NCBI GenBank assembly: GCA_016703645.1
Contig: JADJBR010000007.1
Span: 310,001 to 374,000 of the forward strand
Source of the DNA: Zoogloea sp.
GTDB lineage: Bacteria; Pseudomonadota; Gammaproteobacteria; Burkholderiales; Rhodocyclaceae
DNA length: 64,000 bases
Direction: 5' to 3'
Shown here: in pieces, positions 25,032-42,234 of the stretch
Numbering within the stretch: the stretch's first letter is position 1
How the letters are laid out: each line of letters starts with the position of its first letter
Position numbers and translations under genes: made by a program
The notes under the pieces: generated by a model
What the model was told of the DNA's origin: nothing
The model's database searches: none
What the model saw: only the letters and a program-made list of their open reading frames with translations

Positions 25032-27593
25032 TCAGACGCTCAGGCGCTTCAGCTCGTAGAGGGCTTCCAGGGCCTCCCGCGGGCTGAGGGCGTCCGGGTC
25101 GATCCCGGCCAGGGCGCCCAGCACCGGATGGCCGGGCAGCTCGGGCTCATCCGCGGGCAGGCTGGCGAACAGGTCGGCCTGGGGGCCGGCGGAGATCTCG
25201 CGGTTTTCCAGGGCGCGCAGGCGGCGCTTGGCGTCCCGCACCACGGCACCCGGAATGCCGGCCAGGGCGGCGACTTCGATCCCGTAGCTCTGGCTGGCGG
25301 GGCCTTCCTCCAGGGCGTGCAGGAAGACGATGCCGTGGTTGTGCTCCACCGCATCCAGGTGCACGTTGGCGCACTCCGGGTAGTCCTGGGCCAGGCGGGT
25401 CAGCTCGAAATAGTGGGTGGCGAACAGGGTCCAGCAACGGTTCTTGTCCAGCAGATGGCGGGCAATGGCCACGGCCAGGGCCACCCCGTCGAAGGTGGAG
25501 GTGCCGCGGCCGATCTCGTCCATCAGCACCAGGCTCTGGTCGGTGGCGCCGTGGAGGATGGCGGCGGCCTCGGTCATCTCGACCATGAAGGTGGAGCGCC
25601 CGGAGGCCAGGTCGTCGGAGGCGCCGATGCGGGTGAAGATGGCATCCACCGGCCCGATGCGGGTGCTGCTTGCCGGCACGAAGCAACCCACGTGGGCCAG
25701 CAGCACGATCAGCGCCACCTGGCGCATGGTGGTGGATTTACCGCCCATGTTGGGGCCGGTGATCAGCAGCATGCGCCGGGTCGGGTCGAGGCGGCAGTCG
25801 TTGGCGATGAAGTTTTCCACCTGCCGTTCCACCACCGGGTGGCGCCCGGCCTGGATCTCGATGCCCGGCTGGTCGCTGAAACGGGGCATGGCGTAGTTGT
25901 AGCGGGCGGCGGCTTCGGCAAAGGCCGACAGGCCATCGAGCAGGGCACAGGCCCGGGCGATGCGCTGGAAGCGCGGAATGTCGGCGGCGAGGGCGTCGAG
26001 CACGCCCTCGTACAGCAGCTTTTCCCGGGCCAGGGCACGCTCCTGGGCCGATAGGGCCTTGTCTTCGAAGGCCTTCAGCTCCGGGGTGATGAAGCGCTCG
26101 GCGTTCTTCAGGGTCTGGCGGCGGCGGTAGTCCTCGGGCAGCTCGCCTTTGGCGGCGTTGGCGGCGGAGATCTCGATGTAGAAGCCGTGGACCCGGTTGA
26201 ACTCCACCTTGAGGTTGGCAATGCCGGTGCGCTCCCGCTCCCGGGCTTCCAGTTCCAGCAGAAAGGCGCCGCAGTTGGTCTGGATGCCGCGCAGCTCGTC
26301 CAGGTCGGCATCGAAACCTTCGGCAATTACGCCACCGTCCCGCAGCACGGTGGAGGGTTCGGCGGCAATGGCGCGGGTCAGCAGATCCAGGGCTTCGTCG
26401 GGCGTGGCGAGCTCTTCGAGCATGCGCTCCAGCAGCGGTGCCTGGGGGCTGCCCAGGGCGGCGCGCAGCTCGGCCAGGCGGCCCAGGCTGTCGCGCAGGG
26501 CGGACAGATCCCTCGGGCGGGCGCTGCGCAGGGCCACCCGGGCGGTGATGCGCTCCACGTCCGACACGCCGCGCAGGGTGCGCCGCACCGGTTCCACCGG
26601 GCCTTCGCCCAGCTCGGCCACGGCCATGTGGCGATGGGCGGCGGCGCTCCGGTCACGCAGGGGGTGGTGCAGGGCGTGGCGCAGCCAGCGCGAGCCCATG
26701 CTGGTGGCGCAGGTGTCGAGCAGGGAAAGCAGGGTGGGCGCAGCCTCGCCGCGCAGGGTCTCGGTGATCTCCAGATTGCGCCGGGTGGCGGCGTCCAGGC
26801 GCAGGAAGGCGCTGTCGCGCTCGGCCGTCAGCGCCGTGATATGGGCCAGGGCCTGGCGCTGGGTGGCGCGGGCGTAATCAAACAGGGCCGCCGCCGCGGC
26901 CAGGGCCACCGGCATCTCGTCGGCGCCGAAGCCGGCCAGATCGCGGGTGCCAAAGTGGGTGGTGAGCAGGCGCCGCGCCGTCTCGGCATCAAACTGCCAG
27001 TCGGCCAGGCGGCGCAGGCTGGGGGCCAGATGCTCCAGCAACGGCAGGCGCAGCCCGTCGGGCATCAGCACCTCGGCCGGGCGCAGGCGCTCGAACTGGG
27101 CCGCCAGCTGGGGCGCATCGCACTCCAGCACCCGGAAATCCCCGTTGGCCAGGTTGAGCCAGGCCAGCCCCAGCACCCCCCGGTGCAGATTGACCGCCAG
27201 CAGCGGCGCATCGGCCTTGTCATCCAGCAGCGCCGCATCGGTGAGCGTGCCCGGTGTGACGATCCGCGCCACTGCCCGCTCCATCGGCCCCTTGGTCGCC
27301 CCCGGGTCGCCCACCTGCTCGGCGATCACCACCGACTCCCCCAGCTTCACCAGCCGCGCCAGGTATTGCTCCAGCGCATGATGCGGCACCCCGGCCATCT
27401 TGATCGGCTGCCCGGCTGAGGCACCGCGGGTGGTCAGCGTGATGTCCATCAGCCGCGCCGCCTTCTCGGCGTCCTCGAAGAACAACTCGTAGAAGTCGCC
27501 CATGCGGTAGAAGAGGAGGGTGTCGGGGTGGTCCTGCTTGATGCGGAGGTACTGCTGCATCATGGGGGTGTGCATCGACAGATCTTGAGTCAT
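25032..27593 (-). CDS. mutS: DNA mismatch repair protein MutS
   Basis: 853 residues from the ATG at 27593 ([10 protein letters not shown]); a TTG at 27620 is in frame but less likely. The mismatch-reading motif is in [14 protein letters not shown]. The ATPase has the Walker [28 protein letters not shown] and the ATHYFELT switch. Length is typical. It starts only 23 bases after the stop of the restriction gene res and no promoter or terminator is evident between them, so mutS may depend on, or be boosted by, transcription through the defence operon. The ribosome-binding site is poor. Confidence 0.97.
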
Positions 27594-27616
27594 TGATTTC
27601 AATCTATTCGTATTCC

Positions 27617-30600
27617 TCAAGCAGTAGCAGTGGCCAGCAGCTTGTTCAGATAATCGGCTTCAGGCATGAACAGGACATGCAGCTTGTCCAAGTCAGGCAC
27701 AGCATGGCCTTGGTGAGTCCAGAGATGTTCGAGGCGTAACCGGTTTGCTGAGGGCGAGAGAATGAAGGACTCCAACGCAACGTCGCCATCACCCAGGCGC
27801 TGTTCAAGCTGTTTGATGTTCTCACTGAAAGTGATTTTGTCACTGCCCGGCCCCTCGTGCTCCAGCCCGTGTGGGTCGATGAAGCTGATGCGTTGCTTCC
27901 CGTCCTGGCTAACGCACCACAGGATGAAATCCGGGAAGAAATTCCCCGCCTCGAAAAAACCCACCCCGCGTTTGGCCAGATTGCGAAGCAGGAACAGGCG
28001 CTTGCCCTGCTCCAGCAGGTCGTCCTCATGGGCTTGCAGCCATTGGCGCAGATCGTTGACGAACTGGAACTCTGACCTGTTGAGGGCGACCGGCTGGATT
28101 GCCACCTTCTCGCTGTAGAGCAGGGGTTCGTAGAGGTGAGCGCCCAGGCGCAAGCCCTGAACATAGCCATTGGTCCGCCAGCCAATGGCCGCCAGATCGG
28201 CTTTCAACTGGCGGATATCCTGGATCAGGTAATCCTCATTGGCCTCAACCACCAGCGTGTAGTGTTCCTCACCGGGCAGGTTTTCGTGGCCTTTCTCCAG
28301 CGGAACCAATTCCATGCGCGGGTCGAGGAACTTCCGTTTGTGGTGGTTGAAGCTGCGTTCCAGTGCCATCGACAGCAATTCAAAGGCCATCGACTGCCAA
28401 TGACGCCGGTTGTTCATGTTCGCCTGCCACATCTGGGCAGGCGCGGCCAGGCGATACCAGTCCGGCGTGTTGAGCAGTGAGCGAAGCTTGTCGTGCTTCA
28501 GTGTCAGGTTGTCCAGGTGTCGTTGGCGGCGGAAACGTTCCAGGTCGAACCACAGCGCATCCCAATCCAGTAGCTTGAGGCGCAGGGCGTCGAATTGGCG
28601 CGGCGTGCTGTCGGCCGCATTCACCGCCTCATTTGTCACCTCGCCGGCTTGCAGCATTTGCAGGCGCGGAAAGCGGTCAACGGTGACGACCGCGCCTCTC
28701 TGCGTCATGCCCGGTGGCAGGTTTGCGAGAGAGAACTCGACCACTGGCCCGTGCTTGCGGAAATCGTATTGCTCCTGGGTGTCCTTCCGAAAACGAGGGC
28801 GCAGGATCTTCAGATTCTGGCCAAAGTCGTGGGTGACGTTGAGGGTAATGGTTTCCACCTTCGGTTCGTCATTTGGCGGCAGCCCTTCGCTTTCCAGGAA
28901 ATCGCGGAAGGTCGCCATGAAATCTGCCTGCACGCCAAAGACGTTCAAGGTCTCCAGAAAATGGATATCGCGGGGCGGATTGACCGGCTGGTAGCGGCTG
29001 GTGCGCATCAGGCTCAAGTCCTTGCCCTTCAGGCGCACGCCGCGCCCGAATAGCTGGATGATCTGGGCGCCTTCGCTTTGCCCCATGCGCATCAGGCCAA
29101 GGCTGGAAACCCGCCAGCAATCCCAGCCCTCAATGAACTTCTTCGAACCCACCAGGAGATGAATTGGCGAATCCGGCTTGTGCACGTCTCCAAAAACCGC
29201 TTCGCCAAACTCGCTGGGGCGAACCTCGGCCAGCGAATGCTTGTGCTCCAGCTCTTCCTGCACGTGCTTGGCCAGCGCTGCCGCATCCCCCACGTTGATG
29301 ACGCCAAAGGCCTGTTCTGCCTCGCCCACTTTCAACAGCAATTCGCCGCTGTCTCCCTTGACCCGTTCCACCACCAGATGGCCGCCACCCGGCGCATGGA
29401 AAAGGCGCTGGCAGATGTCTGCGTAAATGGCAGCGCCGTCCAGCTTCAAATCCCGCAAATAGGGGAAGGAATTGACGAACACATCGCGCCCCTGAGCGTC
29501 CATCAGCCCGGTTTGCTGACCGTTGCCTGAGAGCACCAGGCCGATCAGGCGGGTGAACTCCTCTCGGTGGGCCAGAAAGCGGGCGAGGAAATCGAGAATC
29601 TGCGCCACGTCGGAAGGCGAAACGCTGTCCTCATCCACCTTGCGCCCGGTCACGCTGGCGCCCACAAAGACCCACAGTGGCTTTTCCAGGTTGTAGCCGG
29701 CGTAGCGCTTGCCCGCCTCGGCAAACATCCGCAACTGCTGGTAGAAAGCCAGCAATGCCGCCGTCAGGTAGGTGTCCTTATGGGCCAGTTCGTCCTTGGG
29801 CAGATTGAAAATACGGTAATCCTTGCCATACCCGTCGGCATAGAAATAGCGATAGCTGTAATCGAACAGCACCGCCTTGGCGTAGCTCTCGGCCAGCACC
29901 TTGTCGTTGGCCGCCTTCACCGCCTGCTTGAAGGTCGCCGAATACTCAAAGGTAAAACCTCGTGCCGCCAGCTTGTCGCGCTTGGCCTTCCAGTCGCTGC
30001 CGCTCATGCCCCGGTGGCCTTCGTCCACCAGCAGCAGGTTGGCGTCGCCAAAGCTGTCCACCGCCATCTGCTTCACCTTCTGCTCATCGGCCAGCTTGGT
30101 GATTTCGGTGAGCAGCGGAATGTCCAGCGCGCTTTGCCCGCGTGAAGCGAGGTCGCTTTCCTGGCGTAGTGGTTCCGGGTAGAAGCCGTTATCCCGCAGC
30201 TCCCGTTCGTGCTGTTCGGAAAGACGCTCGTTGGGGGAAAGCACGATCACCCGGCTATAGGCATCGGCCTGGCCGGTGCAGCGGGCGTAGTGGGCAAACT
30301 GGCGCAGGTTGACGTGCATCAGCAACGTCTTGCCACTGCCGGTGGCGTTTTGCAGACACAGTTTGTTCAGGTCGTCGGCCGCATAAAGGCTAATGCCGGT
30401 GCTGCGCTTTAGCTGTTCGTGAAAACGGTTGAAGCGTTCGACAAAATCATTCAGTGCCGCGCACAAGCCCTGGCGGTCGCTGAAATAGCGATCCAGGTAG
30501 ATTTCCACAAACAGCAGCGTCAACCACTGAAAGTACTTCCAGACGATCTCGCCCTTTTGCTTGCGCTTGCCATTGATCGCTTGGGTATGTGCCACCAGGT

Positions 30601-30892
30601 TGGCGTCGTAACGCGTCAGCTCGGCGGGCGTCAGCACTGCGCTGGTCGGCAGATGGGAGATCAGGGCTTCTAGAAAGCGGTGCTTGCCATTGGGCGCGAT
30701 ACCCGGCTCGACCGTGCGCAGGGTCTTGGCGAGCATTTCCAGCGGCCGTACCTGGCGCCCGCTGTCCGTGTGCGGATGCAGGGGGTCGATACCGAACAGC
30801 CCAACCAGGAACTGGTTGAGCACCAGTGCCTCCTGAAAATGGCTGACGACCAGCGGCGGCTGCGCCTTGCTGCTACGCGGTGCGCGGCTCAT
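27617..30892 (-). CDS. Type III-like restriction enzyme Res subunit (helicase-nuclease)
   Basis: 1091 residues from the ATG at 30892 ([13 protein letters not shown]), overlapping the DUF4276 stop as ATGA. It is an SF2 helicase: Walker A ATGSGKT (183-189), DEGH box in [12 protein letters not shown], and [12 protein letters not shown] in the second RecA lobe (FGRG context, motif VI region). Near the C-terminus FPDFILW and ISFIDPHGL form a plausible PD-(D/E)xK nuclease core, the expected cleavage domain of Res. It is the last gene of the defence operon. The partner Mod is six genes upstream in transcription order rather than adjacent as usual, with two ATPase/DUF4276 cassettes between them. Confidence 0.85.
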
Positions 30893-31500
30893 GCCTGACC
30901 TCCCAGGGCTTCCAGTCGGGCGATCCAGGCATCGAAGCGCGGGCACCGGGCTCGGATGGCGGTCAGCCCGGCGGCGGCGACAATGGCCGGGCCATGGGTT
31001 GGTTTGTTGAAGCGGCCACTGAATATCTCGAGCAAGCGATGTGAAGGGCTGGTTTGCAGGCCGTCATTGATCGATTCAGGATCACCACAAGATCTCAGCA
31101 CTTCAAACATGGCACGAAGCTCCCGGTCTGAGCCGTGAATTGCCGCCACGGTGTTTTCTGGTACTGCGAACAACAGGGCCTCGAATTCGTAGCGCTGCAC
31201 ATAAGGCAACATACGATGACGGAGATGTTCGGATACCAACTGCACCATTGCTGTTTCCAGCGAGTCGACCGTGTGCTTGCCGCGCCGCTTGAAGCCATAA
31301 AAATCGACCAGGGTGCTCAGGTAATCGAAGTTGCCGACTGCGCCGGGCAAAATGTCAGCCAGTCGGTCAAGGCTGACGTTTCCGCGCAAATCCAGCGTGT
31401 TGGTCCAGAGCCCGAAACCTGCCAAATGTGGTGTCAGGACATCGCGAACGAAGATTCGCTCGGTCATGCCTTCGACGCAAATACCCAGGCGGCGCTTCAC
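30889..31500 (-). CDS. DUF4276-family TOPRIM-like protein, cassette 1
   Basis: 203 residues from a GTG at 31500 that overlaps the ATPase stop. The N-terminal LGICVEGMTERIFVRDVLTP has the glutamate-bearing strand-helix of TOPRIM-like folds. DFYGFKRRG and YEFEALLFAVP are further shared blocks, and the C-terminus holds GPAIVAAAGLTAIRARCPRF and WIARLEAL. I assign DUF4276 from these blocks. The TOPRIM nuclease idea follows from the ExxTE pattern and from pairing with an OLD/ABC-like ATPase, as in other defence modules (OLD, Gabija, PARIS and AbiL types have ATPase plus TOPRIM or RloB partners). It is a diverged duplicate of 32658-33263. Confidence 0.75.
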   Translation of the reverse strand: MKRRLGICVEGMTERIFVRDVLTPHLAGFGLWTNTLDLRGNVSLDRLADILPGAVGNFDYLSTLVDFYGFKRRGKHTVDSLETAMVQLVSEHLRHRMLPYVQRYEFEALLFAVPENTVAAIHGSDRELRAMFEVLRSCGDPESINDGLQTSPSHRLLEIFSGRFNKPTHGPAIVAAAGLTAIRARCPRFDAWIARLEALGGQA

Positions 31501-32657
31501 GGATTGCCTCCCAGCAGATTCATCTCCCACAATTCGCCCAGCCGGAATTTCTCAAGCCAATGGGCAACGTCGGCTTCTTGCAAGCGGCGTAGCTGGGTGG
31601 CCCCGTTCATCTGATCGACGACCACCAGATTTTCCCAGCCGACCTGACTTGCCAATGTTGGCGATTGGGTCGCCGCAATGATCTGGGTATGGTTGCTGGC
31701 GGCCGTCATCAAGCCGCCGACAAGTTCGATGGCGTAAGGATGCAGCCCCAGTTCCGGCTCGTCGATCAATAACAGATCTGGCAATAATTCGGGCGGCATC
31801 GACAACAAAGTCACCAGACAGAACAGACGCAGGGAGCCATCGGAGGTCAAATGCGGCACGAAGGTCTTGTCGCTATGGCGGCTCTGCCAGCGCAGGTTCA
31901 CCGATCCGAATTGAGGCTCCAGCACAAAATCGTCAAAGCTCGGCAAGACCCGGCGAATCCGTTCCAAGATCTCCTTGTAGCAACGAAAATCGTTGTTGAG
32001 CAGATTCAGCAGCACTGGAGCGAGGTTGGCGCCGTCGCTGCGCAGCCGGGCGTTATCGGTTTCGTCCCATCCCCGGCGCAGTGCCGCCGTCGGCGATGTA
32101 TCGTGAAACTGGTAAAGGCGGCTTTCGCGTAGCCCTCGAACCAGCGCACGCGCGCATTCCTGGTTTTCGGGTGGGCTGGCGGCCATGACCAGTTCGGCCT
32201 CCCGCCCATTGCCTGGCAAGGCCTGCCAGATCGGTGCGTCGGCGCTGCGGTCGCAGCAATAGGCCTCATCGACAACAGTGACCGTATTGCCGGCCGGCAC
32301 CGGTGCCAGGGCAAAACGATAGGCTAACTGCCCGGTTGCCGTGCGCAGTGTCAGCTCGGCACGAATTTGTGGGGCGCCTGCCTCTTCGGCAAAAAACAGA
32401 TCGGCGCCACCGCCTTGGTGCAGTACGAATTCCTGCAGCTTCTGGGCTTTCAGCATCCAGGCCAGCATGTCAAAGAAACGCAGGAAGTTGGATTTTCCCG
32501 TTCCGTTGCCGCCCACGAGCAGTGTCAACGCCGGTAAGTCCAGGCTTTGCGTCGGGCCGAAGCTGCGGAAACCTGAAATTTCAACACGAGCGATCTGCCC
32601 CTTGGCCGGGTTTAAGGGGGGAGGGGGCTGGGTGGATGTGGTGTTCAATAGGGTCAC
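31497..32657 (-). CDS. AAA_21/OLD-like ATPase, cassette 1
   Basis: 386 residues from a GTG at 32657, directly after the TAA of the upstream DUF4276 gene. The N-terminal Walker A is GGNGTGKS (49-56) after ISGFRSFG, the usual start of SMC/OLD-type ATPases. Walker B with its proline is LLIDEPELGLHP, and AATQSPTLASQ is the following H-loop-like region. No nuclease domain is fused; the separate DUF4276 gene downstream probably supplies it. Its C-terminal FRLGELWEMNLLGG recurs almost unchanged in the other ATPase of the operon. It may sense phage or nucleic acid and gate the partner's activity; this is inferred from analogy. Confidence 0.8.
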   Translation of the reverse strand: MTLLNTTSTQPPPPLNPAKGQIARVEISGFRSFGPTQSLDLPALTLLVGGNGTGKSNFLRFFDMLAWMLKAQKLQEFVLHQGGGADLFFAEEAGAPQIRAELTLRTATGQLAYRFALAPVPAGNTVTVVDEAYCCDRSADAPIWQALPGNGREAELVMAASPPENQECARALVRGLRESRLYQFHDTSPTAALRRGWDETDNARLRSDGANLAPVLLNLLNNDFRCYKEILERIRRVLPSFDDFVLEPQFGSVNLRWQSRHSDKTFVPHLTSDGSLRLFCLVTLLSMPPELLPDLLLIDEPELGLHPYAIELVGGLMTAASNHTQIIAATQSPTLASQVGWENLVVVDQMNGATQLRRLQEADVAHWLEKFRLGELWEMNLLGGNP

Positions 32658-33263
32658 TTAGCGTTCTCCCAGAGCTTCCAGGCGGGTGATCCAGGCATCG
32701 AAGCGCGGGCATTGTTCGCGGATGGCGGGCAGGCCGGCAGCGGCAATGATCTTGGGGCCATGCATCTTCTTCTGGAATGTAGTGCCGAACAGATGGTGCA
32801 AACGGTGAGAGGGGCTGGTTTGCGGGCTGTCGTTGACGGCTTCGGGGTTACCGGCTGCGGCAACCGCCTGCTGCATTTCGTGCAAGTGCCCGGTGGAGCC
32901 GCCGAGTTGTTCGACGGTGATCTTCGGTACGGCAAACAGCAACGCTTCGAATTCATGAAGCTGGACGTAGGGCGTCAGCCGGCGGCGAGACTGTTCCGGT
33001 ACGGTTTCCGTGATAGCCGTCGTCAAGCTGGCAAGATCATGATTGCCGCGACGCTTGAATCCATAGAAATCGTAAAGGGTGCTGACCTGCTCGAAATTAC
33101 CAAACATCGCTGGCAGGCGGCTGCGGATACGGTCGATACTGACATTTCCGCCCAAGTCCACGGCGCGTGCAAAAACGTTGAAAGCCAGCAAATGCGGGTT
33201 CAGGACGTGATGAACGAACTCCCGTTCGGTCGAGCCTTCGACACTGATTCCCAGGCGAATCAT
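32658..33263 (-). CDS. DUF4276-family TOPRIM-like protein, cassette 2
   Basis: 201 residues from the ATG at 33263 (MIRLGISVEGSTEREFV), overlapping the ATPase stop as ATGA. It shares the block order of the copy at 30889-31500: VEGSTEREFVHHVLNPHL, STLYDFYGFKRRG, HEFEALLFAVP, IIAAAGLPAIREQCPRF. Differences are spread along the protein, so the duplication is old enough for independent specialisation. The acidic residues of the presumed active site (E in VEGSTE, D in DFYGF, E in EFEALL) are retained in both copies. Translational coupling to its ATPase suggests a stoichiometric complex. Confidence 0.75.
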   Translation of the reverse strand: MIRLGISVEGSTEREFVHHVLNPHLLAFNVFARAVDLGGNVSIDRIRSRLPAMFGNFEQVSTLYDFYGFKRRGNHDLASLTTAITETVPEQSRRRLTPYVQLHEFEALLFAVPKITVEQLGGSTGHLHEMQQAVAAAGNPEAVNDSPQTSPSHRLHHLFGTTFQKKMHGPKIIAAAGLPAIREQCPRFDAWITRLEALGER

Positions 33264-34345
33264 TCCGGAGTTCCTCCCAGAAGATTCATTTCCCAAAGCT
33301 CGCCCATGCGGAAATCGTCAAGCCACTGGGTGACTTCCGCTTCGTCCAGGCGGCGGAAGCGCGAGGCGTTTTCGACTTGGTCTACGACAACGATGTCCTG
33401 CCAGCCAAACTCATTGGCCAGCGTCACTGATTGGGTGGAGGCGATGATCTGCGTCTTGGCGCTGGCCGAGCACATCATGGCCGCCAGCAACTGGATGGCG
33501 AAGGGGTGCAGGCCGAGTTCCGGCTCGTCGAGCAGCAGGATGGTGGGCAGATTGGGTTGCAGCAGCAAGGTCGTCAGGCAGATGAAACGCAAGGTGCCGT
33601 CGGAAAGCATATGGGCATCAAAATACTCGTCGCTGCCCTTGTGCTTCCAGCGCAGGCGAATCTGCCCCTTGGGCTCGGGTTGAAAGACGAAATCCTGAAA
33701 GAAGGGCGCAACGCGCTGGATCATGCCGACGATGTCGGCGTAAGCCTTGGTTTCCCGAATGCCGAACAGGAAGGCAGCGAGATTCTCGCCTTGTGGGCGC
33801 AGTCGGGTGTTGTCGTGGATGTTCGCCGCCAGCTTGACCTTGGCGGTTTCGCTGGTGTCGTGGAAGTGATGAACCTTCCAGTCGGAAATACAATCGATCA
33901 CACCTGCCGAACGCGGATCATCCGCAGGCAATTGCGATTCGCTGGTAGCAACCGCACCCGTAACGAAGTTCAGCCAATCGCCATCGGGTGTATCCAAACC
34001 GCGGTTGAGACCAAAAACTTCCCGTTCGAAAACCAGCCGATCATCCTTGGTGGGGACCAGCGAAATGTCGTAGGAGTAGGGGTTGAAACCCAGGTCGACT
34101 TCAATGGCTTCTGTCGTCTTCCTGCCGAAATACAGCAAACTGTTCGCCCCCCCCTGTTGCGCCACATATAACTGCAAATCCTTATCCAACAGCTTGTTCA
34201 TGAACTTGAAGAAGCTGATGAAATTGGACTTGCCGGCGCCGTTGGCGCCGATCAGCACGTTGAGCGGGGCCAGTTCCAGGTCCAGTTCGCGGATCGAGCG
34301 GAAGCCCTTGAGCTTGATGTGCTGCAAACGACCCAAAGTGCTCAT
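33260..34345 (-). CDS. AAA_21/OLD-like ATPase, cassette 2
   Basis: 361 residues from the ATG at 34345 (MSTLGRLQHIKLKGFRSIRE), whose first base is shared with the mod stop (TAATG). Walker A is GANGAGKS (33-40). Walker B is LLLDEPELGLHP, and ASTQSVTLANEFG follows. It is a paralogue of 31497-32657, with an identical LWEMNLLGG end. A longer reading frame extends upstream to 34549 but runs inside mod and is not real. Position directly after mod means that this cassette is expressed with the methyltransferase. Confidence 0.82.
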   Translation of the reverse strand: MSTLGRLQHIKLKGFRSIRELDLELAPLNVLIGANGAGKSNFISFFKFMNKLLDKDLQLYVAQQGGANSLLYFGRKTTEAIEVDLGFNPYSYDISLVPTKDDRLVFEREVFGLNRGLDTPDGDWLNFVTGAVATSESQLPADDPRSAGVIDCISDWKVHHFHDTSETAKVKLAANIHDNTRLRPQGENLAAFLFGIRETKAYADIVGMIQRVAPFFQDFVFQPEPKGQIRLRWKHKGSDEYFDAHMLSDGTLRFICLTTLLLQPNLPTILLLDEPELGLHPFAIQLLAAMMCSASAKTQIIASTQSVTLANEFGWQDIVVVDQVENASRFRRLDEAEVTQWLDDFRMGELWEMNLLGGTPE

Positions 34346-37300
34346 TACGCGTCCTCCCACATCCGTTGGGCGAAGGTTTCTTCGATCAGGCGCACGCGGG
34401 TGGCGGCGTTGCCGTCGCTGGGCAGGGCGTGGCTGCCGTTGATGTAGATGGTCTCGAACTCGCTTTCCAGCGGGTTGAGCTTCTTCTTCGCCAGATAGGC
34501 TTCCAGCACCGCCTGGTCGCGGCCGGCGTCGCTGGTGAGCTTGCGCCACAGCACCAGCACGCGCTGGCGCGAAGTATCGTCGCCGGGCACGGCCAGCACA
34601 TGGCCTTCCACCCAGCGGAACCAGAATTCGCCTTCGTCCTGCTCGTCGATGCGCGCGCAGGTCCAGCGCGTGTCCTGATCCTTGGGCAGGTCGGGATCGA
34701 CGGTTTGCACCAACTCGGCGGCGTAGCGGCGCGGCCGGTCGAGTTGGGCGACGTGCAGGCCGATCAACCAGTTGAAGGTCTCGATCAGATCGACGGTCTT
34801 TTCCACCTGCGCCTCGCTGCCCGGCTGCTTGACCTTGAGGCGGTAGGCCGTCGGGTCGGCAAACTGGCGCACGTTGAGCAGGCTGGGGCTGCCGGCGGTC
34901 TCGAAATCCAGCCAGTACTTGAGCAGGTAATCCCGGGCGAGGTCGGAATTTTGCGGGTTTTCGACGTCGACCACAGGATTTTTCGGCAGCAACAGATTGT
35001 TCAGGGTGTCTTCGTAGGATTCGAGAGTGATTACTTTCAATATTTTCGGGCTGAATTCAGCTTCGACTTTATTGCAAGGGGAAGCAGGGTTGCCCATTTC
35101 CCATTTTGAAGAATAGGTACTTTTAACTATTCTTGGAACTAAAGTTGTTGTGAAATGCCCGCCCATTTCAACTAGGATAAATTTTCTTTTCCCCTTGCTC
35201 TTTCTGTTTAGCTCTATCACAGATTGACCTGTTGTCCCAGATCCGGCAAAAAAATCCAAAATAATATCTGACGAGTCTGTAGTTTGGGATGCAATTTTTG
35301 TAATCAAGCCTGGGGGCTTTGGATTGTCCACCAAACCTTTTTTCCCAAAAAGCTCCTCCAGTTTCGGTTCGCCATCCGAGTATTGTCTAATAACGCTTGT
35401 TGCAACTACGCTTTCCACTTCATGCAAAAAATATTTCTGCTGTGGAATTGAGCCTGGCTTCTTAAAAACGATTCGGTTATCTGTTATATATTTTTCAAGC
35501 GTTGGCCTATTCTCAATAGACTTCTCCGGAAACGCCCAGCCTCTTTTAGGGTGGCTGTACTCAACCCCTGTGATTTTATCTTTCGGCTTATAAAACCTGT
35601 AGTTATCCGAGCAGGGATCAAAAATTGATTCTGATTGCTTCCCAGAAGGCATCGATGGCTCCACCTCACGGAAAATCCATATGCGCGCACTTGATTTTTT
35701 TGCATCATTTTCGCTTACATACTTTCCAGACCCGCTTCGATATTCTGCGAATTTGTAGGGGTATATCCCTTTCCATGGATCAGTCTTTTTTGCCTCCTCT
35801 GCACTTTCACCTTGTTCAATTGCCTGATCGCGGTATTCAGCTCTATGTGTGTCGTACAGAACCTTTATCTCCGACTCCACTTTACTTAGGCTGGGGTATG
35901 CCTGTTCCTCTTGGAGGCGGGCTATCAAATCCATCACCTCCGAGAAACCAGGCCTTGTCTCCCTGAACATGCGCTTATCACTCTCGATGAGAGCTTTGTT
36001 TTTCCCGCAAACCTCGATGTATTCATGGTTCTTTGAATACATTGGAGAATTATTACTTACTGTATCACGCGCCCATATTAGTTCAGCGACAAAATTGTCT
36101 GCACCAAAGACACTCTTCATGCATTCTTCAAGGCTTGAGCGCTCCACTTCATTTATGCTGGAATAAATAACGCCTCTGTTTGACAATATCTTCTTGGATA
36201 ATTGCAATCTATCAAAAATCATTGCCAACCAGCTAGATGTTTTTAGCGAATCCTTGTAAACAAAGCCATCGACCCCAGTGTTGTATGGAGGGTCAATGTA
36301 TATTAGTTTCACTCGATCTGCTAGGGAGCTAACTAACAAATTCAAAGCATTAAAATTCTCTCCATTAATGAGTACGCCATCCGTATTTTCCGCAATATCG
36401 GATATCGATGACAAAATATTTGCGGCGAATTCCTCGCTAAAGTTCTTGGTGTTAATCATCAATGAAGGATGTTTTTTTATATCCGCCAAGCTGATTTTTT
36501 GCCTTATAAGGCTGAGCCATATCCATTCTTGTTGCTGCGCTTCATTTGCGGCAATTTCCGGGTAGAAGGCTTCGGAGATACGGTCCAGCGTGATGCAGTA
36601 ATTGGTCTCCACCACGAACTTCTTCTTCAGCCACAGCTTTTTCTGGAAGTCCTCGATCTGGGCGAGGAAATCGATGATGCGGCGGGCGATCTTGCGCAGG
36701 CTTTGCAGTTTCTTCAGGTAGGTTTCGACACGGGGCGCTTCGGCGTTTTCGATGTCGTCGAGGCGCATGATTTCGTTCTTGATGTAGAAATCCAGCTCGC
36801 GCCGCAGGAAGCCGCCCAGGTTTTTGTGGATGAAGTAATCCATGGTGTTGCGGCTGGTGTATTGGCCCAGGTATTTGCCGAGCAGCGTGCGGTTGGGCTG
36901 CTTGTCGGTGGGCGCCGGGGTAGCCAGCGCAGTGCGGTGGGCTTCGGCTTGGGGCAGCTTGGTCAGCGCGGTCTGGATGGCGGCTTCGGCTTCGGCCAGT
37001 CGCTTTTGCTGCCAGGTGCCGGCCTGGCCGGTTTTCTCCGGGTCCGGGCGGTATTGGAACTGGATGACGAGTTCGGTCTGGCTCTGCGCGTTGGTTTCGA
37101 GCTTGACGGGTTCCGGGCTGTGGATGAGGAAGTAGCGTTCCTGGCCTTCCTTGACGTTGTTGTGTTCGCCTTCGCTGGCGGCAGCGAGGCGGAAGTGGAC
37201 GGTCAGGCTTTCTGCCGGCGCGGCAAAGTCGAAGTCGGCCTGGCCGCCCTGACCGGCGATTTTTTGTGCGGCGGCGAGGTCGACGGTGAAGTTGGCCAGG

Positions 37301-37842
37301 TATTCGCTGGATTTGATGTAGTACTGGTCCTTGTTGGCCCAGTGCAGCATGACTTCGCGGCCGTCGTAGGGGATGGCGTAGGGCTGGGCGCGGCTGTCGT
37401 TTTCGGCGACGAAGTAGCGGCGCGACATGAAGTCGCCCTTGTCGTAGTAGCGGCGGAAGAAGCGGTAGAGGTGGTCGTAGATTTGCGCGTCGTCAGCGAG
37501 CAGCCCGCCGCCTTGCTGGGCTTGCTGGCGGATGGCCTCGTATTCCTGACCGATCTTAATTTTGGCGAATTCGGGCTTGAGCTCGCCATTGGCTTCCAGG
37601 GCGTAGTCGCCGAGGGTTTGCTCGATTTTGAGGCGTGCGGCCTGAAGCTGGTCGTGGATGCTGGTTTGGTATTGGCCGGCAAAGACCTTGTCGATTTCGG
37701 CGGAGAGTTCGTTCTGGACGAAGGCTTTGATCTGGCGGCTGCGGGCATGCAGGATGCGGTAGAGGCCAAAGTCCAGTTCCGGCTGGTTGAGCTGGAACAG
37801 CTCTTCGAGCAGGGCAACGAATTTTTCCTTGTATTGGCTCAT
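34345..37842 (-). CDS. Type III-like Mod DNA methyltransferase, large and mosaic
   Basis: 1165 residues, nearly twice the length of a classical type III Mod. The N-terminal half (to about 430) is helical and GC-rich with no known catalytic motif. DPPYNTG (from residue 517) precedes the SAM-binding FFAGSGTTG (about 864-872), the beta-class order that leaves the recognition domain between them. Probable activity is N6-adenine or N4-cytosine methylation that both protects host DNA and gives specificity to Res. The part at about 35030-36560 is strikingly AT-rich (19 of 60 bases are G/C at 35461-35520, against 36 of 60 at 37441-37500), so this block looks imported. Confidence 0.88.
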   Translation of the reverse strand: MSQYKEKFVALLEELFQLNQPELDFGLYRILHARSRQIKAFVQNELSAEIDKVFAGQYQTSIHDQLQAARLKIEQTLGDYALEANGELKPEFAKIKIGQEYEAIRQQAQQGGGLLADDAQIYDHLYRFFRRYYDKGDFMSRRYFVAENDSRAQPYAIPYDGREVMLHWANKDQYYIKSSEYLANFTVDLAAAQKIAGQGGQADFDFAAPAESLTVHFRLAAASEGEHNNVKEGQERYFLIHSPEPVKLETNAQSQTELVIQFQYRPDPEKTGQAGTWQQKRLAEAEAAIQTALTKLPQAEAHRTALATPAPTDKQPNRTLLGKYLGQYTSRNTMDYFIHKNLGGFLRRELDFYIKNEIMRLDDIENAEAPRVETYLKKLQSLRKIARRIIDFLAQIEDFQKKLWLKKKFVVETNYCITLDRISEAFYPEIAANEAQQQEWIWLSLIRQKISLADIKKHPSLMINTKNFSEEFAANILSSISDIAENTDGVLINGENFNALNLLVSSLADRVKLIYIDPPYNTGVDGFVYKDSLKTSSWLAMIFDRLQLSKKILSNRGVIYSSINEVERSSLEECMKSVFGADNFVAELIWARDTVSNNSPMYSKNHEYIEVCGKNKALIESDKRMFRETRPGFSEVMDLIARLQEEQAYPSLSKVESEIKVLYDTHRAEYRDQAIEQGESAEEAKKTDPWKGIYPYKFAEYRSGSGKYVSENDAKKSSARIWIFREVEPSMPSGKQSESIFDPCSDNYRFYKPKDKITGVEYSHPKRGWAFPEKSIENRPTLEKYITDNRIVFKKPGSIPQQKYFLHEVESVVATSVIRQYSDGEPKLEELFGKKGLVDNPKPPGLITKIASQTTDSSDIILDFFAGSGTTGQSVIELNRKSKGKRKFILVEMGGHFTTTLVPRIVKSTYSSKWEMGNPASPCNKVEAEFSPKILKVITLESYEDTLNNLLLPKNPVVDVENPQNSDLARDYLLKYWLDFETAGSPSLLNVRQFADPTAYRLKVKQPGSEAQVEKTVDLIETFNWLIGLHVAQLDRPRRYAAELVQTVDPDLPKDQDTRWTCARIDEQDEGEFWFRWVEGHVLAVPGDDTSRQRVLVLWRKLTSDAGRDQAVLEAYLAKKKLNPLESEFETIYINGSHALPSDGNAATRVRLIEETFAQRMWEDA

Positions 37843-37885: not shown

Positions 37886-38989
37886 TCACAGGACGGCGCG
37901 GCCTTCGGCGATGTTCAGGAGTTCGGGGAAGGCGAGGATGGCCGGGCGGCGGCCGGCGCCTTCACGCAGTTGCTTGAGTAGCCCGGCTTCCTGTAGCTGT
38001 TTAAGCAGCGGATGGGCGGTAGGCTTGGGGATGTGGGCGCGGATGGCGAAGTCGCCGATGCGGAAGATGGGCCGGTCGAACAGGGCGTCGACGATCTGGG
38101 CGCTGTGTTGCGAGCGGGTGATGTCGCGCACCTGGGTCTTCATGCGTTCGTACAGGGCGAGGATGGCCTGTACGCGGACGATGTTGGTCTTGGCCTGCTC
38201 GGCGATGGCGTGCAGGAAGAAGGCGGTCCAGCCGGTCCAGTCGTTGTCGCGGGTGATGGCGGCCAGTCGTGCGTAGTATTCCGGGCGGTTGGCCTCCAGA
38301 TAGGCGGAGAGGTAGAACATCGGCGTCGAGAGCCGCCCCTTGCTATACAGGAAGAGAGGAATCAGCAGGCGGCCGATGCGGCCGTTTCCGTCCTTGAAGG
38401 GGTGCAGGATTTCAAACTGGGCGTGGACGATGGCGGTTTGCAGCAGCGGGTCTACGTCGTCGCTTTCCAGGTAACGCGCCCAGGCTTCCAGGTGGTCGGG
38501 GAGTTGCAGTGGGTTGGGCGGGACGAAGGTGGCGGTTTCCTGCGTGCAACCGTAGGGGCCGATCCAGTTCTGGGTCTTGCGGAATTCCCCGGGCTCCTTG
38601 TCCTGGCCACGCACGCTGTCCATCAGGGTTTTGTGCAAGGCCTTGACGAGGCCAAGGCGTAGCGGGCGTTCGCGCAGGGTATCGGCGGCCAGGGTCAGGG
38701 CTTGCCGGTAGTTGAGGATTTCCTGGATGTCGGCTTCCTTGTGGGCGTCGTATTCCTGGCCGGCTTCGTGCTCCAGCACTTCCTCGACGGTGGCCTGGGT
38801 GCCCTCGATCTTGGAGGAGAGTACCGCTTCCTGGTTGGTCAGCGGCGAGAGCATGACCGCCGGGTTGACCATGCCGTGCAGCAGACCGTCGTAACGGGCG
38901 AGCGCCGCATTGGCTTCACCGACCAGCGTAACCAGCTGGGCGATGTTGATGCCTGAGGGTGGTAGCGGGGTGGGCTCGTAGGGCTGCAT
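37886..38989 (-). CDS. Fic family protein with N-terminal inhibitory motif
   Basis: 367 residues. The Fic motif HPFKDGNGRIGR (196-207) is complete, so AMPylation or a related nucleotidyl transfer is expected. The N-terminal inhibitory motif SxxxEG is present as SSKIEG (58-63), the class in which an internal helix blocks ATP until released. The C-terminus (about 300-367) has a winged-helix look (HPLLKQLQEAGLLKQLREG), so it may also bind DNA. It is transcribed ahead of mod with 43 bases between. The target may be a defence protein or a host protein; nothing in the sequence decides. Confidence 0.88.
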   Translation of the reverse strand: MQPYEPTPLPPSGINIAQLVTLVGEANAALARYDGLLHGMVNPAVMLSPLTNQEAVLSSKIEGTQATVEEVLEHEAGQEYDAHKEADIQEILNYRQALTLAADTLRERPLRLGLVKALHKTLMDSVRGQDKEPGEFRKTQNWIGPYGCTQETATFVPPNPLQLPDHLEAWARYLESDDVDPLLQTAIVHAQFEILHPFKDGNGRIGRLLIPLFLYSKGRLSTPMFYLSAYLEANRPEYYARLAAITRDNDWTGWTAFFLHAIAEQAKTNIVRVQAILALYERMKTQVRDITRSQHSAQIVDALFDRPIFRIGDFAIRAHIPKPTAHPLLKQLQEAGLLKQLREGAGRRPAILAFPELLNIAEGRAVL

Positions 38990-39164: not shown

Positions 39165-39193
39165 GTGTCGATGAAACTCGGGTTCATCGACAC
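39165..39193 (-). terminator. Hairpin directly after the SNF2 gene
   Basis: GTGTCGATGAA and TTCATCGACAC are perfectly complementary 11-base arms around a 7-base loop, beginning 9 bases after the SNF2 stop. On the minus strand it is followed by ATATTTTCG, a weak T-tract. It may act as a partial terminator between the helicase gene and the Fic-mod operon, or as an operator. Confidence 0.45.
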
Positions 39194-39201
39194 GTTGTTG
39201 T

Positions 39202-42102
39202 TTAGCCGACCGACCACCGAATCGTGAATAGCTCGCGGGTGTTGCTGGCCTGGTGCAGTCTTTTTTCCAGGGCCGCGATCAGGGCGTCGCGCTTGGCCTC
39301 GATGTCGTCTTCCACTTCAAAGATGGCTTGGCGCTGCCGGCGTTGTTCGGCTTCGACCTTGCGGGTTTCTTCTTGCAGGCGACGGGCTTCGTCCATGCTC
39401 ATGGCGGTGCGTGCCTGACGCTTCAAGGCCTTGAGTTTGAGCTTGGTGTCTTGGAGCACCTGTTCGGCGGCGAGGATGCGGTCTTCGGCCCAGGCGTCGA
39501 GCTTTTCCCGTTCCTGCTGGAAGTACTGATCGTTTTGTTCGAGGGCGCGGGCGAGGGCGGCTTGAAGTTGCTGGTGGGTATTGCCGGTGAGGCTGTCGGG
39601 TGGCGTCAAGCCATCAAGCGGCGTGGTTTCGGCGGCGATCTGGAAGAGCTTCTCGCAGATTTCCTGTTCCAGGATCTCGCCGGCGTCGTTCTGGGCAGTG
39701 AAGACCAGATGTTCCTCGCGCTGGAAGCTGTCGAGTTCGAGCAGGTTGAGTTGCAGCCATCCGCTTTGCCCGGCCAGTTGTTCGAGCATGGCGATGTGCG
39801 GCTTTTGGCCGCTGGCGTCGAAATGCAGGTGGGTGAGCGGTGTTTCCAGATTACGGCCGCGTTCGAGAACGTATTCGCCGAGGGGGTGGGTCAGGCGATA
39901 GATGCGGGCGTGGTCGGGAGGTGTCTGACCCTTGCGGATCAGGTGGTAGAGGCCAGCGGGTGCGGCTAGTAGCGGCGGGGTTTGCAGGGTGAAGGCAAGC
40001 GTCTGGGGGTCGAAGCGGGCGTGTCCGGCCAGGATCAGTTGGGTGAGCTTCCAGAAATAGCGGGTGATGCGGTCGAGCTGGCTTTCGGCTTTTTCTTTCT
40101 GGCTGCGTAGCAGGTCGTGAATGTCGGCATCGAAGTGTTCGAGCAGAAGTTGCTCGGTATGGGCCATGCGAGCCTGGATGTCTTCTTCGAGTTCGGCACG
40201 CAGGGTGGCGAAAGCGGCTTCGATGGCGGCCGGGGTGCGGCAGCGGTCGTAGATTTCGGCAATGCGTTTTTCAAAGTCGATGCCGCTTTCGATCTGGCCG
40301 AGAATCTGATCGGAAGCACCGAAGACGCCGTCGAAGAGGTGAAATTTGTCTTGCAGCAGTTCCAGCACGCGCTGGTCGGCTGCGTTGCGCTGGTTGAGGA
40401 AGTTGATGACGACCACGTCGAACTGCTGGCCGTAACGATGGCATCGGCCGATACGCTGCTCGACCCGTTGCGGGTTCCAGGGCAGGTCGTAATTGACGAG
40501 CAGCGAGCAGAACTGAAGGTTGACGCCCTCCGCGGCGGCTTCGGTGGCGATGAGGATTTCGGCATCGGCGCGGAAATGGTCGATCAGCGCGGTGCGGCGG
40601 TCTATGGCGGGCGAACCGGTGATGCGGTCGCTGCCGCTGAATTTGGCCAGCCAGCGTTGGTAGACGCCGGTGGCGCTCTGGGTATTGTTAGTGCCGCTGA
40701 AGGTGATGACCTTGCCAGCGTAGCCCTGGGCTTCGAGAAAGCGGGCGAGGTAGTCCTGGGTGCGTCGGGATTCGGTGAAGATCACCACCTTGCGGGCAGC
40801 GCCCATGCCTTGCATGCGTTCGAAGCCTTGCTGGAGTGCATGGAGCAGGGCGTGGGACTTCTGGTCTTCGCGGATGGTGCGGGCGAGGGCCAGATAGCGG
40901 TCGAGTTCGGCAAGCTCCTGTTTGAGTAGCGTGTAGTCGATGCCTTCCGGGTTGCCTTGGCTTTCCAGTGCTTCGTCTTCGGCGGCTTCGAGCAATTCGT
41001 CCTCAAGGTCGTCATCTTCGACCAGGTGGGCGAACCACTCCTCATCGATGCTTTGCTTGTCGAGCAGCTTTTGCAGGCGGTTGCGGATGGCTTCCAGCGT
41101 GGCGGTGATGGCTTCGGTCGAGGAGGCGAGCAGTTTGCGCAGGATCAGCCCGACCAGATGTTTTTGCCGTTGCGGGAAGCCGTAGCTGAACTCTCGTTGC
41201 AGGTAGGTCGAGACCAGCTCGTAGAGACGATATTCGTCTTCGCTGGGCTTGAAGGGTGTGGTCAGGGCATGGCGCCGGGTGTAAGGGACGTATTCGAGGA
41301 CGTCTTTGCGCAGGGTGCGTTTGATGAAGGGAAGGAGACGGCGGCGCAATGCCTGCAGGTCGCCGTCGATGTTGCCGTAGCGGGAGCGAAAGCTGCGTTC
41401 ATCGCCGAAGATCTCCTCGTCGATCAGCGAGGTGAGCCCGTAAAGCTCCATCAGGGAGTTCTGTAGCGGGGTGGCTGTGAGCAGTAGCTTCTTGCGTCCA
41501 GCCAGCGAACGCTTGAGGCTCTGGCCGGTGGCGTGGCTCTTGCGGTGGGCGTTGCGCAGTTTGTGCGCTTCGTCGATGACGATGGCGTCCCAGGGAATGT
41601 TGCCGATAGCCTGCTCCATCCGGGTAGAGAAGTGGTAGGAGCAGATGCTGATTACGTCGCGGTTGAAGGGGTCGTAGATGCCGCGCTGCTGAAGGTCTTT
41701 CCAAGTGCGGGCGTCAAGGACTTCAGTCGGGAGATTGAATTTCTCACTGAGTTCGAGCGCCCATTGTTTACGCAGGGCGGCTGGGCAGATGACGATCAAA
41801 CGGCGCTTGCGTTCAGCCCACAGTTGGCAAAGCACCAGGGCTGCTTCGATTGTCTTGCCCAGGCCGACTTCGTCGGCAAGGACGACGCCCCTGCTGAGGG
41901 GGTTGTTGAGCGCGAACAGTGCGGCATCGATTTGATGTGGGTTGAGGTCTACGCTGGCGTCGAAAAGGGACTGGGCAATTCGGTCTTCTTCACCGGCGGC
42001 GCGGCGACGGGTGAGTTCCCAGGCGTAGTACTTGCCGTGAAAGGCTGTGATCATTCCGTTTGCCAAGCGATTCCCCTTTTTGCAGTCCATTGAATAGTAC
42101 AT
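39202..42102 (-). CDS. SNF2/RapA-like helicase of the defence island
   Basis: About 966 residues from the ATG at 42102, which has GGAGAAG about 10 bases upstream; in-frame ATGs at 42090 and 42054 are alternatives. SNF2 motifs are LADEVGLGKT (76-84), IDEAHKLRN (motif II at 177-180), LLLTATPLQNS and VEQRIGRCHRYGQ. An acidic insertion (VEDDDLEDELLEAAEDEA) lies between the lobes. The C-terminal third is helical and highly charged. Free-standing SNF2 helicases accompany several defence systems, for example DrmD in DISARM, but no other DISARM gene is here. It is the first gene of the island and divergent from guaA. Confidence 0.85.
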   Translation of the reverse strand: MYYSMDCKKGNRLANGMITAFHGKYYAWELTRRRAAGEEDRIAQSLFDASVDLNPHQIDAALFALNNPLSRGVVLADEVGLGKTIEAALVLCQLWAERKRRLIVICPAALRKQWALELSEKFNLPTEVLDARTWKDLQQRGIYDPFNRDVISICSYHFSTRMEQAIGNIPWDAIVIDEAHKLRNAHRKSHATGQSLKRSLAGRKKLLLTATPLQNSLMELYGLTSLIDEEIFGDERSFRSRYGNIDGDLQALRRRLLPFIKRTLRKDVLEYVPYTRRHALTTPFKPSEDEYRLYELVSTYLQREFSYGFPQRQKHLVGLILRKLLASSTEAITATLEAIRNRLQKLLDKQSIDEEWFAHLVEDDDLEDELLEAAEDEALESQGNPEGIDYTLLKQELAELDRYLALARTIREDQKSHALLHALQQGFERMQGMGAARKVVIFTESRRTQDYLARFLEAQGYAGKVITFSGTNNTQSATGVYQRWLAKFSGSDRITGSPAIDRRTALIDHFRADAEILIATEAAAEGVNLQFCSLLVNYDLPWNPQRVEQRIGRCHRYGQQFDVVVINFLNQRNAADQRVLELLQDKFHLFDGVFGASDQILGQIESGIDFEKRIAEIYDRCRTPAAIEAAFATLRAELEEDIQARMAHTEQLLLEHFDADIHDLLRSQKEKAESQLDRITRYFWKLTQLILAGHARFDPQTLAFTLQTPPLLAAPAGLYHLIRKGQTPPDHARIYRLTHPLGEYVLERGRNLETPLTHLHFDASGQKPHIAMLEQLAGQSGWLQLNLLELDSFQREEHLVFTAQNDAGEILEQEICEKLFQIAAETTPLDGLTPPDSLTGNTHQQLQAALARALEQNDQYFQQEREKLDAWAEDRILAAEQVLQDTKLKLKALKRQARTAMSMDEARRLQEETRKVEAEQRRQRQAIFEVEDDIEAKRDALIAALEKRLHQASNTRELFTIRWSVG

Positions 42103-42193
42103 TGGTCTTAAGCTTCTCCGGTCTGTCCCTGCGCGCCCTCGAGACCAGCCAGAAGTGCCCGCCCACGGTGTCCCGCCCTCCGGGCGCAAGGGC

Positions 42194-42199
42194 TATAAT
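42194..42199 (+). promoter_or_regulatory. guaA: -10 box before guaA
   Basis: A perfect TATAAT lies 36 bases before the guaA GTG start. No good -35 hexamer is visible at 17 bases (TCCCGC). It shows that guaA has its own promoter here. No guaB gene lies in front, where the restriction island begins instead. Confidence 0.5.
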
Positions 42200-42234
42200 G
42201 CCGGCCTTCCCGTTTTCACCCTCCGGACTCCGCC

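Follow-up and report, generated by a model that had tools for sequence, protein, structure and literature searches.

The junction between the mod and res genes of a type III-like restriction operon in Zoogloea sp. is probably a translationally coupled slot for cargo, here back-up nucleases that are autonomous rather than subunits of Res. In the window, the whole 64,000-nucleotide stretch of DNA that was analysed, this junction carries two cassettes, each an ATPase gene followed by a DUF4276 gene. The cassettes look like exchangeable guests, not parts of the restriction enzyme, because in related operons this gap is empty or is filled by other, often defence-like genes. In the reading that we propose, an SNF2-helicase/type III-like restriction operon carries two HEC-01 modules in its slot, and each module would be a split OLD-type effector. 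An ABC-type ATPase would sense infection, presumably by phage, and turn on the OLD-like TOPRIM nuclease, DUF4276. The modules would then act as second-line effectors that are autonomous, swappable and co-produced with the restriction enzyme, and the firing of a cassette would be expected to kill or arrest the cell.

The whole island has the gene order snf2 helicase, Fic, mod, ATPase1, DUF4276-1, ATPase2, DUF4276-2 and res, and it occupies the guaA-mutS interval, which is ~135 bp long in two sister species. The six genes from mod (34345..37842) to res (27617..30892) all lie on the - strand with intact frames, confirming the order and the junctions that an earlier sequence-only reading had described. 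The stop of mod overlaps the ATG of ATPase1 (33260..34345) in a TAATG at 34345. ATPase1 and DUF4276-1 (32658..33263) share an ATGA at 33263/33260, DUF4276-1 abuts the GTG start of ATPase2 (31497..32657) at 32658/32657, ATPase2 and DUF4276-2 (30889..31500) share a GTGA at 31500/31497, and DUF4276-2 and res share an ATGA at 30892/30889. The final codons of mod form a purine-rich SD-like stretch, TGGGAGGA, immediately ahead of the next start. The overlaps and this stretch would allow translation of an inserted gene to keep pace with that of mod and res, suggesting that the slot genes are translationally coupled. The six-gene operon of the earlier reading stands, but its extent was drawn too narrowly: it overlooked the first island gene, snf2 (39202..42189, - strand; likely start the ATG near 42102), the Fic gene (37886..38989, - strand) and the host gene mutS (25032..27593, - strand), whose first ATG lies 23 nt past the res stop. 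Sister-species homology on the mutS side starts at 27572/27573, and the native upstream region of mutS is replaced by the island. The host gene on the other flank, guaA (42235..43797, + strand; PF00117, PF00958), was recognised by homology to the sister species, and an ORF at 42193-43689 was rejected as an operon gene, being an antisense artefact of guaA. When the two island ends were scanned separately for internal repeats, one 12-nt direct pair was found and no others. A promoter scan returned two sites, below the shuffle level, and terminator-like hairpins in the region (18 versus a shuffle mean of 19.8) are not in excess. A hairpin in the SNF2/Fic gap (39165..39193, - strand; 11 pairs on - and 13 on +) is called terminator-like solely on its stem length and position.

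Profile matches identify the host genes as a type III-like restriction-modification pair, with an N6/N4 DNA methyltransferase for mod (PF01555; PADLOC MTase_III, 6e-186) and an SF2 helicase for res (PF04851, 3e-9; PADLOC REase_III PDLC03654, 3e-166). In the mod and res translations we recognised by eye what we take to be DPPY and Walker A motifs. The Fic gene (PF13784, PF02661; PADLOC SoFic, 8e-119) is cargo at the SNF2/mod junction. The SNF2 gene (PF00176, 1e-34) lies upstream of mod in 28 of the 37 assessable related loci, the window counted, and is nearest to the DrmD profiles of DISARM (PADLOC PDLC02619, 1e-195), although its 657 bits against NCBIfam DISARM_DrmD_b fall short of the cut-off of 950. 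It also cross-matches a DrmA model (3e-45), and none of DrmA, DrmB and DrmC was found among the other island genes. Its match to HmaA is far below that to DrmD, placing the locus outside Hma, and neither HmaB nor HmaC is among the matches listed (25 of 29 for mod, 3 of 3 for res). MADS does not describe the locus either, with MAD3 ATPase matches of 95 and 90 bits versus a curated cut-off of 420.

Both cassettes are HEC-01 pairs by PADLOC best match, a HEC-01A ATPase (ATPase1, 2e-139 to PDLC04175; ATPase2, 3e-110) beside a HEC-01B DUF4276 protein (DUF4276-1, 4.5e-55; DUF4276-2, 5e-49) that also matches PF14103 (9e-43 and 2e-40, respectively). HEC-01 reportedly comes from PADLOC-DB 2.0, described in a 2024 preprint by Payne et al. 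Both ATPases have AAA_21/AAA_15 domain matches, and the ATPase profile matches OLD, PtuA, GajA and AriA chains. Key ATPase motif residues are present in 23 or 24 of 24 aligned rows, and the motifs kept in ATPase1 are presumably Walker A, an SDG signature and DEPELGLHP. The AF2 model of the ATPase is poor (pLDDT 64.5), and that of DUF4276-1 (pLDDT 91.4) resembles the TOPRIM nuclease of OLD proteins, with OLD rows leading the VIA list by a slim Z margin; AriB is not in that list, which carries no weight either way. A search of PDB sequences with DUF4276 gave two matches only, at chance level. The predicted active-site residues E9, E13, D65, E104 and E106 (DUF4276-1 numbering) are invariant in 22 of 22 rows and present in DUF4276-2. 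Between DUF4276-1 and its counterpart in L004, dN/dS is 0.236, at dS values above 1 and near saturation; dS of ATPase1 was not estimable. With an ABC-type ATPase and a modelled TOPRIM fold bearing conserved acidic residues, each cassette resembles an OLD nuclease split in two, and the module is probably anti-phage.

The layout of an ABC-type ATPase with a separate TOPRIM-family partner is also that of PARIS, whose AriA and AriB respond to the anti-restriction protein Ocr according to the portion of PMC9122126 available. By this analogy a back-up triggered by the inhibition of restriction, as the sequence-only reading had suggested, is possible. A special case of the slot reading, in which the cassettes would arrest the cell on specifically sensing phage proteins that block the type III enzyme, be they DNA mimics or inhibitors of Res or Mod, is in our view somewhat unlikely. 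AriA profiles do match both ATPases (94 and 100 bits), and embedded OLD-ABC/TOPRIM pairs are proposed as BREX back-ups in the available part of PMC12839542. However, HEC-01A profiles beat AriA by >270 bits, the cassette partner matched PF14103 only whereas AriB is a DUF4435 protein, and copies without an adjoining restriction operon require a different trigger.

We assessed 45 related operons, sampled by homology and not at random. In 22 of them the mod/res junction is empty, with mod next or almost next to res; 6 carry HEC-01 there and 14 carry other cargo, and for 3 the content is unclear. L004, L005, L015, L021 and one Aeromonas plasmid each have a single cassette in this junction. Two in a row turned up in the window and L030 alone, and the Res of L030 is 100% identical to that of the window. 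This recurrence indicates that the order is not due to chance, and a single insertion here, with mod and res always adjacent elsewhere, was not what we found. On a 39-row Res tree the presence of HEC-01 changed state at least four times. In the window's own Res clade HEC-01 occurs in 4 of 12 rows, and as few changes were seen in just 21 of 500 shuffles, so its presence is somewhat clustered, which could reflect a favoured partnership with the operon. The earlier claim that the cassettes are functional in the restriction system is thus partly borne out, by recurrence, by start/stop coupling and by the likeness to ATPase/TOPRIM systems. Its stronger form, in which the ATPase/DUF4276 pairs join the Mod-Res complex or regulate it as a gate, has their position between mod and res and the overlapping starts and stops in its favour, but the empty and differently filled junctions argue against it, and we regard it as very improbable. 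Res proteins 78.5-79.4% identical to that of the window are encoded in eight cassette-free operons, and Res proteins 73-80% identical in three operons with one cassette. In Halomonas-type operons, with Res 92.5-95.7% identical, the junction contents are exchanged at the mod stop codon, and res follows HEC-01, a Zeta-type gene or 74 bp.

HEC-01 also occurs on plasmids without adjoining restriction genes (plasmid matches examined, 4 of 26 for mod and 6 of 15 for ATPase1), which again speaks against a built-in part. To judge from these sequences the module can exist alone, which is not proof that the window copies work alone. The plasmid yielding L194 was already among the ATPase matches. One plasmid copy adjoins vapBC, and Fic and Zeta-type genes are among the other slot cargo, as would be expected if the cassettes were toxin-antitoxin-like, penalising cells that lose the operon and contributing little directly against phage. 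We consider such an addiction role quite unlikely, since no antitoxin-like gene is among the annotated genes of the island and the slot also carries members of the NsnABC and PDC families, which are classed as defence genes. PDC and HEC labels are themselves assigned on embedding. A phage origin of the cassettes was considered and set aside. None of 50,697 phage records matched ATPase1 at E 1e-10. IMG/VR has 7 loci encoding ATPase relatives, of which the nearest two are 48% and 44% identical, and a DUF4276 scan of IMG/VR came back empty.

It is unlikely, though less so, that any gene preserving the coupling can occupy the slot and gains shared expression as its sole benefit. The cargo is indeed highly varied, and the SNF2/mod junction accepts it too (HEC-01 in L097 and L198, Fic in the window). 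As a control we used 20 loci of other type III mods, 19 of them assessable (in L186 the contig ends within mod). In 14 of the 19, the large ORF that comes next on the same strand, whether or not it was res, overlaps mod or starts within 10 nt; in the other 5, mod is followed by a gap of 0.3 to 1.2 kb, consistent with such passengers. In contrast, the cargo is defence- or toxin-like in 10 of the 14 other-cargo operons (Zeta 2, RhuM 2, YhcG 2, Fic 2, Nsn 1, AbiJ 1); the remaining four hold DUF3800, a weak PLD-like gene and two ORFs of no known family. The slot is a place to seek unknown defence genes, such as the 184-aa, 146-aa and DUF3800 cargo, and it provides a natural test of cooperation between embedded modules and the host enzyme.

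The embedding of such modules is already published. HEC is named in the portions available of PMC10855318, PMC11411939 and PMC12988326, and HEC-01 is simply listed among gut-bacterial defence systems in that of PMC12724379. Like HEC-01, the Hma-embedded candidate, the window has an ATPase + DUF4276 pair inside a multi-gene defence operon; here, however, the host is an SNF2/type III mod-res operon and two cassettes are stacked. The BREX-embedded dyads, as far as PMC12839542 describes them in the part available, are likewise two-gene ATPase/TOPRIM modules in a DNA-modification defence locus, whereas here there is a type III mod/res host, a single multi-cargo junction and a mosaic second copy. 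TgvAB, in the available text of PMC11411939, is an independent two-gene defence system between restriction genes, but those are type I R-M genes, and TgvAB is GmrSD-like and targets modified DNA. Among the papers listed in a literature search, no title or abstract dealt with an SNF2-mod-res unit or placed HEC-01 in type III operons. With our results guilt-by-embedding reaches SNF2/type III operons as well as loci of the Hma, type I R-M and BREX kinds, and there is one precise junction at which close-kin restriction operons exchange cargo.

Comparison of the sequences indicates that cassette 2 is a mosaic. The core of ATPase2 goes with the ATPase of an Aeromonas slot cassette, and its last 90 residues, together with DUF4276-2, go with cassette 1. 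The break near residue 295 was matched in 0 of 5000 shuffles; for the C-terminal part alone, a rival grouping with L194 was not rejected (p 0.226). ATPase2 shares 47% identity with L194 as against 41% with ATPase1, and its affinity flips along the protein. A recent in-place duplication was rejected, the two ATPases being just 41% identical and in separate clades, and gene conversion within the window is not favoured because L021 has the same mosaic. Long-branch attraction of ATPase2 was considered; the identities and the reversing affinity speak against it, although the tree carried a long-branch warning. Tentatively, and with less than even confidence, we suggest that the slot is a workshop in which stacked cassettes recombine and yield new sensor-effector pairs. 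Recombination in the conserved Walker B stretch would fuse the sensing core from one ATPase with a docking tail and nuclease that come from another. The array would then collapse to a single hybrid cassette, and both cassette 2 and the lone cassette of L021 would have arisen in this way. If so, the window has two triggers wired to near-kin nucleases. The mosaic cassette offers a testable split of OLD-like ATPases into a sensing part and a nuclease-docking part. Counting against the workshop, cassettes are stacked in just one of the six HEC-01 slot operons.

The six-gene order mod, ATPase, DUF4276, ATPase, DUF4276 and res was confirmed on the window sequence, together with the strand and every junction given in the sequence-only reading. 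In profile searches of the island genes, mod matched N6_N4_Mtase (PADLOC MTase_III, 6e-186), res matched ResIII (PADLOC REase_III, 3e-166), the two ATPases matched AAA_21 and their two partner proteins matched DUF4276. The top PADLOC match for both pairs (cassettes 1 and 2) was HEC-01A/HEC-01B, where HEC stands for Hma-embedded candidate (PMC10855318, PMC12988326). The sequence shows overlapping genes and conserved motifs. dN/dS was low for the two cassette 2 genes against those of L021, a related operon (0.117 and 0.124), and was 0.144 for res; for DUF4276-1 against L004 it was 0.236. dS was >1, and the ATPase1 value was not estimable. The middle of mod (35001-36500) has a GC content of 0.417 compared to ~0.60 around it. 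Some pairs of close relatives, of Halomonas type and of Aeromonas type, also lose DNA homology in the middle of mod, a pattern that resembles a swap of the target-recognition part.

The six genes stood as reported, but the island is larger, since a SNF2 helicase gene (39202-42189, the first in the island) and a Fic gene (37886-38989), both identified by profile search, precede mod. A long hairpin sits between these two genes. DNA homology to two sister species, whose MutS showed 98% identity, ends at 42158/42194 and 27573/27572 of the window, and the aligned pieces are only 138 and 134 bp apart in those species, indicating an insertion of ~14.6 kb in the window. The GC content of the island is 0.58 compared to 0.64-0.66 in the flanks. 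Elsewhere in the genus the guaA-mutS interval varies in length among species (L162-L166, L169, L172; e.g. 6.4 kb in L163 and 2.4 kb in L169) and may therefore be an insertion hot spot; guaA was not found within ~16 kb of mutS in L167 and L168. At mutS (25032-27617), the island has taken the place of the native upstream region and of the first codons. The mutS start now lies 23 nt past res, and mutS may share a transcript with the defence operon.

The mod/res junction was assessed in 45 operons: the window, 22 of 30 loci from a mod scan of genome contigs (leaving out seven without res and L030, whose Res is identical to the window's), 18 of 21 regions from whole-genome mod and res searches (leaving out L077, a duplicate of L021, and L087 and L091, without mod) and 4 of 26 plasmid mod matches. 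The Res family is uncommon, occurring in 12/300 genomes of the order and 9/369 of the class, both counts including the genome of the window; DUF4276 occurs in 39/369 genomes of the class. The sequence-only reading had proposed a survey of this gene order, and the outcome was divided: HEC-01 recurs in the junction (6/45: window, L004, L005, L015, L021 and L194) with at least four changes in its presence on the Res tree, but 22/45 junctions are empty (including L028, whose gap is 74 bp, and L083, where the mod frames are broken) and 14/45 hold other cargo. Three are ambiguous, namely L016 (337 bp, no long operon-strand ORF), L029 (degraded) and L193 (268 bp). The other cargo comprises Zeta-type (L014, L026), RhuM (L079, L089), DUF3800 (L080), weak PLD-like (L081), YhcG (L082, L084) and Fic genes (L092, L096), NsnABC plus one ORF without a known family (L088), AbiJ_NTD4 with DUF559 (L093), and ORFs of 184 aa (L078) and 146 aa (L086) without a known family. 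PADLOC, run on 10 cargo proteins from 8 loci, called the L079 RhuM as PDC-S05, the L082 YhcG as PDC-S02, the L093 AbiJ-like protein as PDC-S32 and three L088 genes as NsnA/B/C; the PDC/HEC labels are no independent proof of defence because they are names given for embedding itself. The DUF3800 and PLD-like cargo gave weak PADLOC matches only, and the L014 Zeta-type gene and the 184-aa ORF gave none.

On the Res tree (39 rows, omitting the assessed operons L018 (short), L029 (degraded), L086, L092 and L094 (very divergent) and L193 (unclear)), slot content changed at least 16 times and the filled/empty state at least 10 times; for content, an earlier coding that did not score L028 as empty and still counted L016 and L083 gave 18. 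Res is 92.5-95.7% identical among five Halomonas-type operons (Halomonas, Kushneria, Billgrantia and Alcanivorax records), of which one has HEC-01 in the slot, two have a Zeta-type gene, and the remaining two have gaps of 74 and 337 bp. The alignment of L015 with L026 runs at 90.9% to the last mod codons, breaks, and resumes at 88.2% ahead of res. In the Aeromonas-type clade the junction holds HEC-01 (L194), YhcG (L082, L084) or nothing (L083, L085, L117, L195). The window's operon and the 11 others assessed in its Res clade share a mod end of TGGGAG plus a few bases, and whichever gene comes next, res or an ATPase gene, has its ATG ~10 nt further on.

The SNF2/mod junction also holds cargo, namely HEC-01 (L097, L198) or Fic (the window and its relatives). 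Of the 37 loci in which 2.9 kb or more of sequence was available before mod, 28 have SNF2 there, so this gene usually belongs to the operon. Among 20 control loci with type III mods of other families, seven had a full-length SNF2-like match upstream (L174, L176, L177, L178, L184, L185 and L187; two of these weak, 84 and 107 bits) and L179 had a partial one. The window Fic is nearer to the slot Fic of L096 (L096:8563-9798; 413 bits) than to the upstream-of-mod Fic of its nearest relatives (153-167 bits). This similarity suggests that cargo moves between the two junctions.

ATPase1 and ATPase2 are 41% identical and DUF4276-1 and -2 are 57% identical, 5.2 residual standard deviations off the linear trend of 190 other pairs; this yardstick is crude, since the plainly orthologous pair of cassette 2 and L021 departs as much (5.5). 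In the ATPase tree, ATPase2 and L021 group with the Aeromonas plasmid locus L194 (100/100), and keeping cassette 2, L021 and the cassette-1 group (the six) together was rejected (p 1e-6). In the DUF4276 tree, cassette 2 and L021 group with the cassette-1 group (99/98), and uniting them with L194 was rejected (p 6e-4). The informative sites of ATPase2 switch near residue 295, in or beside the Walker B stretch, with 19% cassette-1-like before it and 78% after (0/5000 shuffles as extreme). The part before the break retained the L194 kinship (100/99; the six rejected, p 4e-7), and the 90-column part after it united the six (93/87; L194 kinship not rejected, p 0.226). All these p values are optimistic, as the groups were named after the trees were seen. 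Together, the trees point to a mosaic cassette 2, in which the ATPase core would follow L194, and the C-terminal part and DUF4276 would follow cassette 1. The Res tree places L021 as sister to the window (86/95), and L021 shares the mosaic, which therefore probably predates their split.

We favour the view that the cassettes are second-line effectors that work autonomously and are expressed together with the restriction genes. The ATPase would sense infection and would then release or activate the TOPRIM nuclease. In P2 Old, the killing of recBC cells requires both the ATPase and the TOPRIM part, whose PARIS counterparts are separate genes (PMC10568477); PARIS is fired by Ocr (PMC9122126). The idea of embedded defence is already known: embedding of defence genes within defence operons has been published (Payne et al. 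preprint), TgvAB is embedded in a type I operon (PMC11411939) and OLD-ABC/TOPRIM pairs in BREX and related loci are described as a back-up layer (PMC12839542). Nothing was found on HEC-01 in SNF2/type III operons in the literature searched (bioRxiv preprints lay outside it). The window's genome carries a third, distant DUF4276 gene (G000:C7:1215038-1215544, L131) with a weakly related ATPase gene upstream. In another locus (L101:425-4214), a HEC-01 DUF4276 gene overlaps the next gene, which encodes a UvrD-type helicase that also matches PD-(D/E)XK weakly; this layout resembles that of Gabija.
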